A DNA stretch of 64,000 nt. Source: Bacillales bacterium (GTDB lineage Bacteria > Bacillota > Bacilli > Bacillales > DASSOY01). The stretch lies in contig DASSOY010000048.1 in the NCBI GenBank assembly GCA_035700025.1, positions 1-64,000 on the forward strand, read 5' to 3'. Under the pieces are notes generated by a model, which saw nothing but the letters and a program-made list of their open reading frames with translations, had not been told where the DNA came from and did not search any database. Below, piece after piece: positions 2,227 through 32,589 of this stretch (position 1 is the stretch's first letter; each line of letters begins with the position of its first letter). The translations under genes and the position numbers were made by a program.

Positions 2227-4653
2227 ATGCGTGTTTCTTATAAATGGTTGAATGAATATGTGAATACAGACGGCTATGATGCTGATGTGTTGGCCGATAA
2301 AATTACGAATGCCGGGATCGAAGTCGATGCCGTTCATGATTTGAATGACGGTGTGACCGGTGTTGTCGTCGGCCATGTAAAAGTTTGCGAGCCGCATCCA
2401 AATGCCGACAAGCTCAATCTATGCCAGGTGGATGTTGGTGAAGAAGAACCGCTGCAAATTGTGTGCGGTGCGCCGAACGTAGCTGCTGGACAGAAGGTGC
2501 CTGTGGCGGTGCCGGGAGCGGTTTTGCCTGGAAATTTTAAAATTAAACGGACGAAGCTGCGCGGAGAATCTTCAAACGGTATGATTTGCTCGCTGCAAGA
2601 GCTTGGCGTAGACGAAAAACTCGTGCCTCGCGAAGTGAGCGACGGCATTTATGTGTTCGAGGAAGATGCGAAAGTCGGCGAAGATGCGCTCGGGTATTTG
2701 AACTTAGACGACCGTGTGCTTGAATTCGACTTGACACCGAACCGTGCCGATGCTTTGAATATGCTCGGCGCCGCTTACGAGACGGCTGCCATTTTGGATC
2801 GCAAAGTGCGCTGGCCGGAAGTCACGCTTCAGGAAACGGCGGAACAAGCATCAGATTATGTTTCGATTGCGATAGATGATGAAAAAGACAATCCATACTA
2901 CGGCGCACGCATCATTAAAAATGTGAAGATTGGACCGTCGCCGCAATGGCTGCAAAACCGTTTGATTGCTGCAGGCATTCGTCCGATCAGCAACGTCGTC
3001 GACATTACGAACTTTGTGCTGCTCGAATACGGCCAACCGCTTCATGCGTTCGACTACGACCGTTTTGGTTCGAAGCAAGTGCTGACGCGGCGCGCGCGTG
3101 AAGGCGAAGAGATCGTGACGCTCGATGGAGCGAAGCGCAAGCTTTCGGCGGAGCATCTTGTCATTACGAACGGTGAAGAGCCGATGGCGGTTGCCGGCGT
3201 AATGGGCGGCGAGAAGTCGGAAGTTCGCGGCGATACAACGACGATTTTGCTTGAGGCCGCATACTTTGCGCCGGCGCGGATCCGGAAGGCGGCGAGTGAC
3301 CTCGATATTCACAGCGAAGCGAGCCGCCGCTATGAACGCGGCGTCGACCCGAACCGGGTCGCGGCCGCTGCGGATCGCGCGGCACAGCTGATGGCGGAGA
3401 TTGTCGGAGGTGAAGTGCTCGCCGGTGTGCCGGAAGCGGGCACGCGCGAGGTGGCGCCGAAGCGGGTGAGCGTTGCGACGGAGAAAGTGAATCGTGTGCT
3501 CGGCACGGACATTTCGGAAGACGAAATGGTTGCGATTTTCGGACGTCTGCAATTTCCGGTCGAATTGGCAGACGGACAATTGCATGTGACAGTGCCGACG
3601 CGGCGCATGGACGTGATGATCCAAGAGGATTTGATAGAGGAGATCGGCCGTATCCACGGCTACGAGCACTTGCCGACGACGCTGCCGTTCGGACCGACGA
3701 CGCCTGGCCGGTTGACGGAGCGGCAAAGCAAGCGCCGGCAAATCCGCCGCTTCCTGGAAGGTGCCGGATTAAATGAGGCGATTACGTATTCGCTGACGAC
3801 CGCGGATAAAGCGATGTTGTTTGCAGAAGAGTCCGTTGAGTCCCATCCAGTGACATTGCCGCTGCCGATGAGCGAAGAACATTCGACGCTGCGCTTGAGC
3901 CTCGTGCCGCAGCTGTTGGATGCGGTGAATTTTAACTTGAACCGCCGCATCTCCGACGTTGCTTTGTTTGAGATTGGACCGGTATTCCAGTCGGAAGAAG
4001 AAAAGCTGACGAAACAGCCGGAAGAGATCGAAAAATTGGCAGGCGTATTCACGGGTACGTGGTTTGAACAGCCGTGGCAAAAAGAGAAAAAGCCGGTCGA
4101 CTTCTTTGTCGCCAAAGGCGTGATCGAAGGCTTATTCCAAGAACTCGGATATGGTGCGCGCGTGAAGTTTGTGCAAACGCAAAAAGACGGACTCCATCCG
4201 GGAAGAACGGCAGCGATCGTGCTTGATCATCGCCCGGTCGGTTACATCGGTCAAATTCACCCGACTTACGAGAAGCTGTTCGATATTGGCGAAACATATG
4301 TCTTCGAACTAAATCTCGATGCATTGTTCCAATCGACACCGGCACCGGTCGCATATCGTCCGTTGCCGCGTTATCCATCCGTCACACGCGATATTGCGCT
4401 TGTTGTTGACGAAGAAGTCGCCGCAGGCAACATTGAAACGGTGATTCGCACGGCGGGTGGGTCACTCTTGCAAGAAGTGTCGCTCTTTGACGTTTACGAC
4501 GGCGAGCACATGGAAGCCGGCAAGAAATCCCTCGCTTATTCGCTCACTTATTTCGATCCGGAAAGGACATTGACGGACGAAGAAGTGATGAAAGCTCATG
4601 AAGCCGTTTTGAATCAAGTAAAAGAAGTGTTCGGAGCAGAACTGAGAAGCTAA
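2227..4653 (+). CDS. pheT: Phenylalanine--tRNA ligase beta subunit
   Basis: Large structural and editing subunit of PheRS, with 808 residues (typical about 800). Domain order can be followed: an OB-fold tRNA-binding domain (about residues 40-150, with PHPNADKLNLCQVDVG), the B3/B4 editing module, the B5 domain, a catalytic-like domain, and a C-terminal ferredoxin-fold anticodon-binding domain (about 715-808, starting near PRYPSVTRDIALVVD). B3/B4 removes mischarged Tyr. It is the last gene of the pheST operon and ends at a strong terminator. Confidence 0.97.
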   Translation: MRVSYKWLNEYVNTDGYDADVLADKITNAGIEVDAVHDLNDGVTGVVVGHVKVCEPHPNADKLNLCQVDVGEEEPLQIVCGAPNVAAGQKVPVAVPGAVLPGNFKIKRTKLRGESSNGMICSLQELGVDEKLVPREVSDGIYVFEEDAKVGEDALGYLNLDDRVLEFDLTPNRADALNMLGAAYETAAILDRKVRWPEVTLQETAEQASDYVSIAIDDEKDNPYYGARIIKNVKIGPSPQWLQNRLIAAGIRPISNVVDITNFVLLEYGQPLHAFDYDRFGSKQVLTRRAREGEEIVTLDGAKRKLSAEHLVITNGEEPMAVAGVMGGEKSEVRGDTTTILLEAAYFAPARIRKAASDLDIHSEASRRYERGVDPNRVAAAADRAAQLMAEIVGGEVLAGVPEAGTREVAPKRVSVATEKVNRVLGTDISEDEMVAIFGRLQFPVELADGQLHVTVPTRRMDVMIQEDLIEEIGRIHGYEHLPTTLPFGPTTPGRLTERQSKRRQIRRFLEGAGLNEAITYSLTTADKAMLFAEESVESHPVTLPLPMSEEHSTLRLSLVPQLLDAVNFNLNRRISDVALFEIGPVFQSEEEKLTKQPEEIEKLAGVFTGTWFEQPWQKEKKPVDFFVAKGVIEGLFQELGYGARVKFVQTQKDGLHPGRTAAIVLDHRPVGYIGQIHPTYEKLFDIGETYVFELNLDALFQSTPAPVAYRPLPRYPSVTRDIALVVDEEVAAGNIETVIRTAGGSLLQEVSLFDVYDGEHMEAGKKSLAYSLTYFDPERTLTDEEVMKAHEAVLNQVKEVFGAELRS

Positions 4654-4657
4654 CGGA

Positions 4658-4687
4658 AATCAGCCCCAACGCGGGCTGATTTTTTTA
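4658..4687 (+). terminator. Terminator of pheST
   Basis: Stem AATCAGCCC/GGGCTGATT with a short loop, followed by a run of T at 4680-4686. Confidence 0.9.
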
Positions 4688-4716
4688 TTGCTTTATTGTT
4701 TTAACTGTTATATATT
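4688..4716 (+). promoter_or_regulatory. Promoter of the GntR operon
   Basis: -35 TTGCTT (4688-4693), 17-bp spacer, -10 TATATT (4711-4716). The -10 lies inside the operator palindrome. Confidence 0.65.
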
Positions 4717-4726
4717 ATTTATAACA
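4706..4726. promoter_or_regulatory. Perfect palindromic operator for the GntR regulator
   Basis: A 21-bp perfect inverted repeat has arms TGTTATA (4706-4712) and TATAACA (4720-4726) around a 7-bp centre. It covers the -10 region of the promoter just ahead of the gntR gene, the position expected for an autorepressor site. Inference: the GntR dimer encoded next to it binds here. Confidence 0.7.
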
Positions 4727-4747
4727 AACGAAAAAGAAGGGTTTCCT

Positions 4748-5140
4748 ATGATCATTGAGCTTGATTTGGAGTCGGAAACGCCGATTTATTTGCAGTTGAA
4801 GCAACAAATCATTGAAGGCATCGCGCTCGGGGAGCTGGAGCCGGGAGAGCCGCTTCCTTCGGTACGCGCGTTGGCATCTGACTTAGGCATCAACATGCAC
4901 ACGGTGAACAAGGCGTATCAGCTGCTAAAGCAAGACGGTTACATTCTCATTCACCGGCAAAAGGGCGTCGTCATTCATCCGGATGGCATGCCGGAAGCGG
5001 ACGAGACTTTCAATGCACATATAAAAAATGGATTGAAGCCGTTGATCACCGAATCGATGTGCCGGCACATGGATGAGAAAGATTTTTTGCAAATGTGCCA
5101 AGCGGTTTTTGAAGAACTGAGGGGAAAGGGGCAAGCGTAA
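4748..5140 (+). CDS. Short GntR-family transcriptional regulator (YtrA/YhcF type)
   Basis: DNA-binding repressor of 130 residues starting at ATG 4748. Residues about 10-75 form a GntR winged helix: TPIYLQLKQQIIEGI, then GEPLPSVRALASDLGINMHT and a wing ending near KGVVIH. The remaining tail of about 50 residues is too short for a FadR or UTRA ligand domain and fits the YtrA subfamily. These usually control neighbouring membrane-protein or ABC genes and themselves. Its stop overlaps the start of the next gene (TAATG), so they are co-expressed. A perfect palindrome covers its promoter. The inducing signal is unknown. Confidence 0.88.
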   Translation: MIIELDLESETPIYLQLKQQIIEGIALGELEPGEPLPSVRALASDLGINMHTVNKAYQLLKQDGYILIHRQKGVVIHPDGMPEADETFNAHIKNGLKPLITESMCRHMDEKDFLQMCQAVFEELRGKGQA

Positions 5141-31929: not shown

Positions 31930-32003
31930 GCGGGTGTAGTTTAGTGGTAAAACAAGAGCCTTCCAAGCTCTGGTCGTGGGTTCGATTCCCATCACCCGCT
32001 CCA
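31930..32003 (+). tRNA. tRNA-Gly (anticodon TCC)
   Basis: The cloverleaf is complete: acceptor GCGGGTG/CACCCGC, anticodon stem AGAGC/GCTCT with loop CTTCCAA (anticodon TCC, reads GGA), T-loop TTCGATT and an encoded CCA end. Length 74 nt including CCA. Confidence 0.96.
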
Positions 32004-32053: not shown

Positions 32054-32107
32054 GTCCCAGCAGCTCAGCTGGATAGAGCACGTGGTTCAGCTTCATCCGA
32101 ACACACG
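32054..32107 (+). pseudogene. Truncated tRNA-Arg 5' half (pseudo-tRNA) with hairpin
   Basis: 32054-32080 repeats the first 27 nt of the tRNA-Arg at 32201 with one difference (acceptor strand, D-arm). After that the sequence diverges: instead of an anticodon arm there is a hairpin CGTGGTTC/GAAC-A-CACG (8 bp with one bulged A, loop AGCTTCATCC). No T-arm or acceptor 3' strand is found in the next 90 nt. I call it a broken copy; a role as a structured RNA cannot be excluded. Confidence 0.65.
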
Positions 32108-32200
32108 ACAAGCGTACCGATGGAGACACAGCATTGAATTGCCTGCCGAGATCGGGACGACGGAGGAATCGATCCAGCGTTAAATCAATATTTTTTTTAT

Positions 32201-32589
32201 GTCCCAGTAGCTCAGCTGGATAGAGCAACGGCCTTCAATTAGGAGCCTTTACAGGGAAACGAAAACCTGTAAAGTGGACGACACTGTATCGGTGGAACCT
32301 TAACAGACTTAAGCTGATGGCAACACCGAGGAAACTTGCGATCTTCTTCGTCGTAAGGAGAAGATTTAGGGGGTTTGAAGGCTCATCTTGAGGGTAAAAG
32401 CCCCGAAGAAGAATCAGATGCACTTGTTGTTACGTTTTGCATTTGATTATCGTGAGGTTCCGTAGAGACTATACGTGTCGCACCTGAAATGGTGAAGATA
32501 TAGTCCAGACCACAAACAACACGGTTGGTGGCGAAAGTCATAGTGGTAAGCTAAGCCGTCGGTCGGGAGTTCGAATCTCTCCTGGGACG
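32201..32589 (+). tRNA. tRNA-Arg (anticodon TCT) interrupted by a group I intron
   Basis: Exon 1 is 32201-32235 and exon 2 is 32551-32589, joining to a 74-nt tRNA. Acceptor GTCCCAG/CTGGGAC, discriminator G, D-arm GCTC...GAGC, anticodon stem ACGGC/GCCGT with loop CTTCTAA (anticodon TCT, reads AGA), T-arm GGGAG-TTCGAAT-CTCTC. No CCA is encoded. Without removal of the 315-nt insert no anticodon arm can form. The insert lies between anticodon bases 34 and 35. Confidence 0.9.
32236..32550 (+). ncRNA. Group I self-splicing intron in tRNA-Arg(UCU)
   Basis: The 315-nt intron has no open reading frame for an endonuclease. Exon 1 ends in T and the intron ends in G, as group I chemistry needs. P1: the exon end CCTT pairs with the guide GGAG (T at the splice site opposite G). 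P2: CTTTACAGG/CCTGTAAAG, a perfect 9 bp. P3: CGACAC (32279-32284) / GTGTCG (32475-32480). P7: GACTATA (32467-32473) / TATAGTC (32499-32505). P8: CACC/GGTG. P9: CCACAAAC/GTTGGTGG with one mismatch. The R element CGTAGAGACTATACG and the S element AAGATATAGTCC match the group I core. P4-P6 I could not settle; the subgroup is open. Confidence 0.92.

Follow-up and report, generated by a model that had tools for sequence, protein, structure and literature searches.

A group I intron interrupting the only tRNA-Arg(UCU) gene found in a Bacillales genome, and its relatives in Bacilli and phages

Our reading of the DNA described here, to which we give a probability of roughly 95%, is that a group I intron interrupts the only tRNA-Arg(UCU) gene of the genome after U34, that it splices itself out and belongs to a family that spreads by homing, and that the copy in the window (the whole stretch of 64,000 nucleotides that was analysed) is now immobile. 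Sequence and covariation together show the fold, the splice-site pairs, the identity of the product and the lack of another UCU gene; from them we infer that the precursor is spliced, that it does so autocatalytically and that AGA could not be decoded otherwise. The gene lies in a tRNA cluster and is divided as follows.

31930-32003, + strand: tRNA-Gly(UCC), the upstream neighbour in the tRNA cluster (ARAGORN)
32201-32235, + strand: 5' exon of tRNA-Arg(UCU), with acceptor strand, D arm, 5' anticodon stem and C32, U33 and U34
32236-32550, + strand: group I intron of 315 nt, its first base C following ...CUU and its last bases being ...GGUAAG (terminal G)
32551-32589, + strand: 3' exon of tRNA-Arg(UCU), with C35, U36, A37 and A38, 3' anticodon stem, variable loop, T arm, acceptor strand and G73; CCA is not encoded

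ARAGORN detected no tRNA in the unspliced sequence (32201-32589) but called a tRNA-Arg with anticodon TCT when 32236-32550 was taken out, which bears out a preliminary description of this DNA, according to which a perfect cloverleaf forms only if 315 nt are removed; the T before the 5' site and the G at the 3' end of the intron that it reported are likewise present in the window sequence. The identity of the host tRNA, also claimed there, holds beyond the window, as in silico splicing at the same site gave tRNA-Arg(TCT) in 66 of 66 distinct family genes, none of which ARAGORN called as tRNA-Arg when unspliced (two were miscalled as tRNA-Ser(gct)), and a terminal G stands at the 3' site in all family genes.

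The gene is invisible to common pipelines because ARAGORN returns a blank and the Rfam score is below threshold. At the gathering threshold, Rfam found no intron in the window; the match to the Rfam model Intron_gpI by which the preliminary description had proposed to check its claim was obtained at a sub-threshold level only (16.0 bits, E 0.19; gathering cut-off 50). Other tested members of the family scored 19.5-26.7 bits, all below 50, whereas the same model gave 67-89 bits to other group I introns of the same genomes. The low score is thus a weakness of the model for the tRNA-Arg(UCU) intron family and not counter-evidence, and the group I assignment rests on covariation and core motifs rather than on a library match. 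tRNAscan-SE 2.0, according to its own paper, is not designed to find such insertions (PMC8450103). In four loci (L254, L255, L256 and L260) ARAGORN placed a tRNA-Ser(gct) within the 3' end of the intron-bearing tRNA-Arg gene; this call is a false annotation, and may be a common one.

An explicit group I model, together with the cloverleaf, was counted on an alignment of 45 family genes. Standard pairs filled 98.3% of pair cells for a fold running from P1 to P9.1, and both sides had changed in 28 of 84 pairs (13.4 +/- 1.9 in shuffles); neither value was matched by any of 500 shuffles, and slid controls had only 34-43% of cells paired. The window intron has each of the helices P1, P2, P3, P4, P5, P6, P7, P8, P9.0, P9 and P9.1.

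32233-32245, + strand: P1, 5' exon CUU and the following C (32233-32236) with the guide GGAG (32242-32245)
32247-32274, + strand: P2 hairpin of 9 bp, with compensatory changes in 6 pairs
32279-32480, + strand: P3 (32279-32284 with 32475-32480), with 3 compensatory pairs, enclosing P4, P5 and P6
32289-32294 with 32324-32329, + strand: P4, inside P3
32298-32320, + strand: P5, inside P3
32333-32337 with 32455-32459, + strand: P6, inside P3
32465-32471 with 32501-32506, + strand: P7, with bulged A32466 and the pair G32467-C32505 at the guanosine-binding position
32481-32494, + strand: P8, between the strands of P7
32509-32513 with 32543-32547, + strand: P9.0; compensatory changes are many in P9.0, P9 and P9.1
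32517-32527, + strand: P9
32529-32540, + strand: P9.1, with a GAAA loop

The S element, AAGATATAGTCC, was located at 32495-32506. This element and the P2, P3, P7, P8 and P9 pairings of the preliminary description were all recovered, within a complete core that upholds its identification of a group I intron. Over the 45 genes, compensatory changes were seen in P2, P3, P5, P6, P9.0, P9 and P9.1, and the anticodon stems of the exons covary across the intron (GGC/GCC, AGC/GCT, GCC/GGC). P7, P8 and the S element are invariant, save that a few genes differ at a single S-element base; in gene numbering, the P7 pair G267-C305 and the bulged A266 are the same in 45 of 45 genes, as is the U.G wobble at the 5' splice site (U35.G43), and the GAAA of P9.1 (positions 333-336) is invariant. 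An unconstrained minimum-free-energy fold of the window gene (z = -4.1 against shuffles) recovered the acceptor, anticodon and T stems, P1, P2, most of P3, P4, P5, P8, P9.0, P9 and P9.1; P7 is missing from it because a pseudoknot is beyond the prediction of that program.

Every base of the seven-base spliced loop CUUCUAA can pair with the guide UUAGGAG of the window, through P1 and P10 combined, and the two helices would therefore set both splice sites. In the mechanism that we propose, the guide would hold the CUU end of the 5' exon, the U.G pair marking the point of cleavage, and a guanosine occupying P7 would cut the 5' site. P9.0 would hold the terminal G, behind which the freed 5' exon would attack while the CUAA of the 3' exon lay on the same guide (P10), to give a product with the loop CUUCUAA and the anticodon UCU. 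An insert in the anticodon loop also recalls the protein-spliced tRNA introns of the archaeal and eukaryotic bulge-helix-bulge kind, which lie in that loop; such an origin is extremely improbable here, because the insert is 315 nt long and has a complete group I core, its guide can pair with either exon and its site is after base 34 (34/35) rather than at 37/38; bacteria, moreover, are not known to possess the splicing endonuclease of bulge-helix-bulge introns.

The anatomy of the intron points to a subgroup. With no more than 3 nt in J7/3 and a short P5, it favours the tRNA-type subgroup IC3 over IA; there is no P7.1/P7.2 and no P5abc extension, and a GAAA (GNRA) loop stands at the P9 end. 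Judged by anatomy alone, IC3 is the most likely subgroup of the window intron. An IA or IStron-type assignment, raised by the S element, was ruled out by the lack of P7.1/P7.2.

The tRNA inventory of the window genome was obtained by an RF00005 search followed by ARAGORN on the loci, and comprised 47 tRNAs and a weak 3' half. The other arginine tRNAs called by ARAGORN were ACG (two), CCG and CCT, with no second TCT tRNA in this inventory of 90 contigs (97.7% complete). The search for other AGA-reading tRNAs that the preliminary description had suggested thus leaves tRNA-Arg(UCU) as the sole reader, and it is improbable that a second UCU gene lies hidden in a gap of the assembly. A pattern for the uninterrupted Arg(UCU) loop matched seven of seven intronless control genomes and had no match in 44 of 45 intron-bearing ones; the single match, in G517, has the 5' flank TTAGT and was taken as chance because this flank is unlike any family tRNA stem. 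AGA makes up 5.2 per thousand codons in 45 long ORFs of the window and is present in 37 of them. As no other UCU tRNA was found, the reading of AGA in intron-bearing genomes should, on these sequence searches, need splicing.

These observations also bear on whether the gene is dead, the insert having inactivated tRNA-Arg(UCU) and AGA being read in some other way. The endonuclease part of the insert has decayed, as that would lead one to expect, but over many genera the stems of the exons and every catalytic helix have been kept through compensatory changes, AGA is common in genes and none of the 45 genomes yielded another UCU tRNA, all of which makes a dead gene highly improbable. That splicing in the cell depends on a host protein, a helper of the tyrosyl-tRNA synthetase or helicase type, is a possibility that we take seriously but consider rather unlikely: there are many group I introns that depend on helpers in vivo (PMC7717549, PMC3984707), yet the anatomy here is complete and the Bartonella tRNA-Arg(CCU) intron BbgpI splices alone in vitro (PMC7717549).

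Beyond the single case of the preliminary description, the intron of the window belongs to a family with a patchy distribution over Bacilli and phages. A sample of the order had it in 17 of 397 genomes and a sample of the class in 31 of 399, always in tRNA-Arg and at the same site wherever the junction was read; a sample of the phylum gave two positives among 398 genomes, the window genome and G039, both of the window's order. The splice-junction pattern matched 57 species, with taxa that include Exiguobacterium, Neobacillus, Lysinibacillus, Domibacillus, Alteribacillus, Shimazuella, Melghirimyces and Thermoactinomyces, and complete genes were read at 54 of the 58 junction-pattern loci. The intron occupies the same place in at least 55 species of Bacilli besides that of the window. 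Support for the intron tree is weak, as 26 of its 61 inner branches fall below 80 and two rows are oddly placed, probably as an effect of trimming, and the tree was not used for any claim of transfer. A plasmid search returned a Bacillus subtilis plasmid whose tRNA-Arg is uninterrupted and, in Tritonibacter, a distantly related tRNA intron. Related introns were seen in a Tritonibacter mobilis plasmid (L191), Gordonia phage Daredevil (L192) and Agrobacterium phage Atu_ph07 (L193); read by eye, these apparently hold the same loop position and would give, once spliced, Thr(UGU), Lys(UUU) and Leu(UAA), respectively.

Introns of the family with a length of ~630 nt carry a frame of 137-138 codons in the P6 loop, ending in J6/7, which matches PDDEXK_5 (PF11645; E 1e-36) and, weakly, the solved chain 2OST (phmmer E 0.15), which is I-Ssp6803I. 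Five relatives have intact PD-(D/E)XK frames (start codon ATG in four and ATA in one), and their pairwise dN/dS of 0.07-0.18 indicates purifying selection. Since the frame of these relatives is intact and so constrained, the family would spread by homing, its endonuclease recognising the uninterrupted tRNA gene. In the window, the corresponding feature is a remnant that the preliminary description overlooked.

32361-32465, + strand: decayed ends of a PD-(D/E)XK homing endonuclease frame in the P6 loop, from alignment to relatives

The intact frame of the relatives stops at the CCGTAG of J6/7 (32460-32465 in the window), and the P6 loop of the window aligns to both ends of the frame with a large deletion between them; the inner alignment score of 74.9 exceeds the maximum of 62.8 in 200 shuffles. 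An intermediate state of frame loss is preserved in L111. We read the window copy as an intron that has probably lost its endonuclease, and because this gene has decayed, the intron would now be inherited as a fixed, immobile element.

Some members of the family are also entangled with islands. An 11-kb island of Bacillus sp. REN10 (L073 644-12430; G039:C1:205643-217429) holds a type I restriction-modification-like system and a resolvase-like gene and is flanked by 66-nt direct repeats that consist of the last 27 nt of the intron and the 3' half of the tRNA, so that the intron end belongs to the att site of the island. An att-like remnant with ~25 nt of the intron 3' end lies near an intronless tRNA-Arg(UCU) in G042 (L074 712-775; G042:C1:2419711-2419774), and the same type of island has apparently passed to an intronless host from one that bears the intron; in G079, the 3' part of a broken second intron and remnants of an endonuclease lie 0.9 kb downstream. 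The REN10 repeats, the G042 remnant and the G079 fragments would all fit an intron that owes its arrival and upkeep mainly to att-site recombination of tRNA-targeting islands or phages, homing playing a minor part. Island copies, however, hold only the 3' part of the intron, and whole introns with intact endonuclease frames exist, for which reasons we consider this route unlikely and retain homing as the main means of spread.

Outside the intron, a partial tRNA copy adjoining the gene had likewise been passed over.

32054-32171, + strand: copy of the 5' half of tRNA-Arg (acceptor and D arm, 27 nt, 32054-32080), followed by a structured element of ~80 nt

The same ~80-nt element follows 5'-half copies of tRNA-Phe, tRNA-Thr and tRNA-Lys in tRNA operons of other Bacillales, where the half-copies, up to several in tandem, stand directly upstream of an intact tRNA of the same kind. 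Its stem is 99% paired, with compensatory changes in seven of nine pairs (0 of 500 shuffles). A model of the half plus the element had strong matches in about one in three of the 199 genomes examined from the order; in the class sample, matches to the model of the element alone were confined to genomes of the order. The element matched no Rfam family and looks like an undescribed RNA or a small tRNA-targeting element.

The splice-junction pattern further matched eleven viral contigs, all eleven with the 5' half of tRNA-Arg(UCU) upstream and the same junction. One of these, L261, equals a Pullulanibacillus gene in junction and intron length and is probably a prophage edge. Another, L262 (IMGVR_UViG_3300035034_000257), has phage topoisomerase, primase and DNA-transfer genes and, at 4400-5050, a tRNA-Arg(UCU) with a 610-nt group I intron that encodes an HNH endonuclease in the P2 region. 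An intron-bearing tRNA-Arg(UCU) is also present in LR756508.1, a 484-kb uncultured phage (L069 1380-2050), with a second intron-bearing tRNA, which would read Lys(UUU), ~0.4 kb away and a HEARO RNA after both (L069 2165-2389). The phage tRNA-Arg(UCU) introns (L254-L260, L262-L264 and LR756508.1) share with the window the host tRNA and the site, after CUU and between the terminal G and CUAA, and differ in length (197-610 nt) and, in one case, by having an HNH endonuclease instead.

The classical bacterial hosts of tRNA group I introns are tRNA-Leu(UAA), tRNA-Ile(CAU), tRNA-Arg(CCU) and tRNA-fMet. The site after base 34 is that of the classical cyanobacterial and plastid tRNA-Leu(UAA) intron, in which the anticodon is cut after U34; the placement between bases 34 and 35 given by the preliminary description therefore stands while the novelty of the site does not, host and taxon being what is unusual. 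The tRNA-Leu(UAA) intron has, besides this site, a short P5 and P6 core and P9.0, P9 and P9.1 with a GAAA loop in common with ours, whereas here the host is tRNA-Arg(UCU) in Bacilli, the guide UUAGGAG fits CUUCUAA, and the P6 loop of many copies holds, or once held, an endonuclease gene. The introns in tRNA-Arg(CCU) of alphaproteobacteria (Agrobacterium; Bartonella, BbgpI) likewise have a tRNA-Arg host and went unannotated until in silico splicing, but theirs is another isoacceptor in another phylum with flanking CCT repeats at the site, and the host here is the sole AGA reader. The tRNA-fMet intron of Synechocystis with I-Ssp6803I also encodes a PD-(D/E)XK homing endonuclease within a tRNA intron (PMC1995217), in another tRNA and another phylum, and there is no more than a distant likeness between the proteins (phmmer E 0.15 to 2OST). 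The group I core is shared also by the group IA2 introns of Bacillus phages, recA and nrdE genes and IStrons, but these have protein-coding hosts and P7.1/P7.2 hairpins (PMC4227781), as against only 3 nt between P7 and P3 here. Classical hosts are named in PMC8450103 and PMC7717549, and a 2007 survey gave four bacterial tRNA hosts (PMC1995217); in the open-licence full-text literature we found no group I intron in tRNA-Arg(UCU) or in any tRNA of Bacilli. What is new is accordingly the host tRNA, the taxon, the type of endonuclease for a tRNA-Arg(UCU) host and the phage versions, and not the mechanism.

The family would add a further bacterial tRNA to the four hosts of the 2007 survey (PMC1995217) and would be the second family of tRNA introns to have a PD-(D/E)XK homing endonuclease. 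It also extends group I introns to tRNA genes of phages, whose introns, according to a 2014 review, were in protein genes only (PMC3984707). More tentatively, a single intron family may circulate at the anticodon of tRNA-Arg(UCU) between chromosomes of Bacilli and phage tRNAs, by way of swapped endonucleases (PD-(D/E)XK in bacteria, HNH in one phage) and of islands for which this tRNA also serves as att site, which would make translation of AGA in the host dependent on a ribozyme and possibly responsive to guanosine; we regard this wider picture as doubtful. Since the gene escapes ARAGORN as well as the Rfam group I model, dozens of sequenced Bacilli, many Exiguobacterium among them, would seem to be without a tRNA for AGA. 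The only AGA-reading tRNA of many species would thus have been hidden, and tRNA genes of bacteria and phages would be linked at one site.
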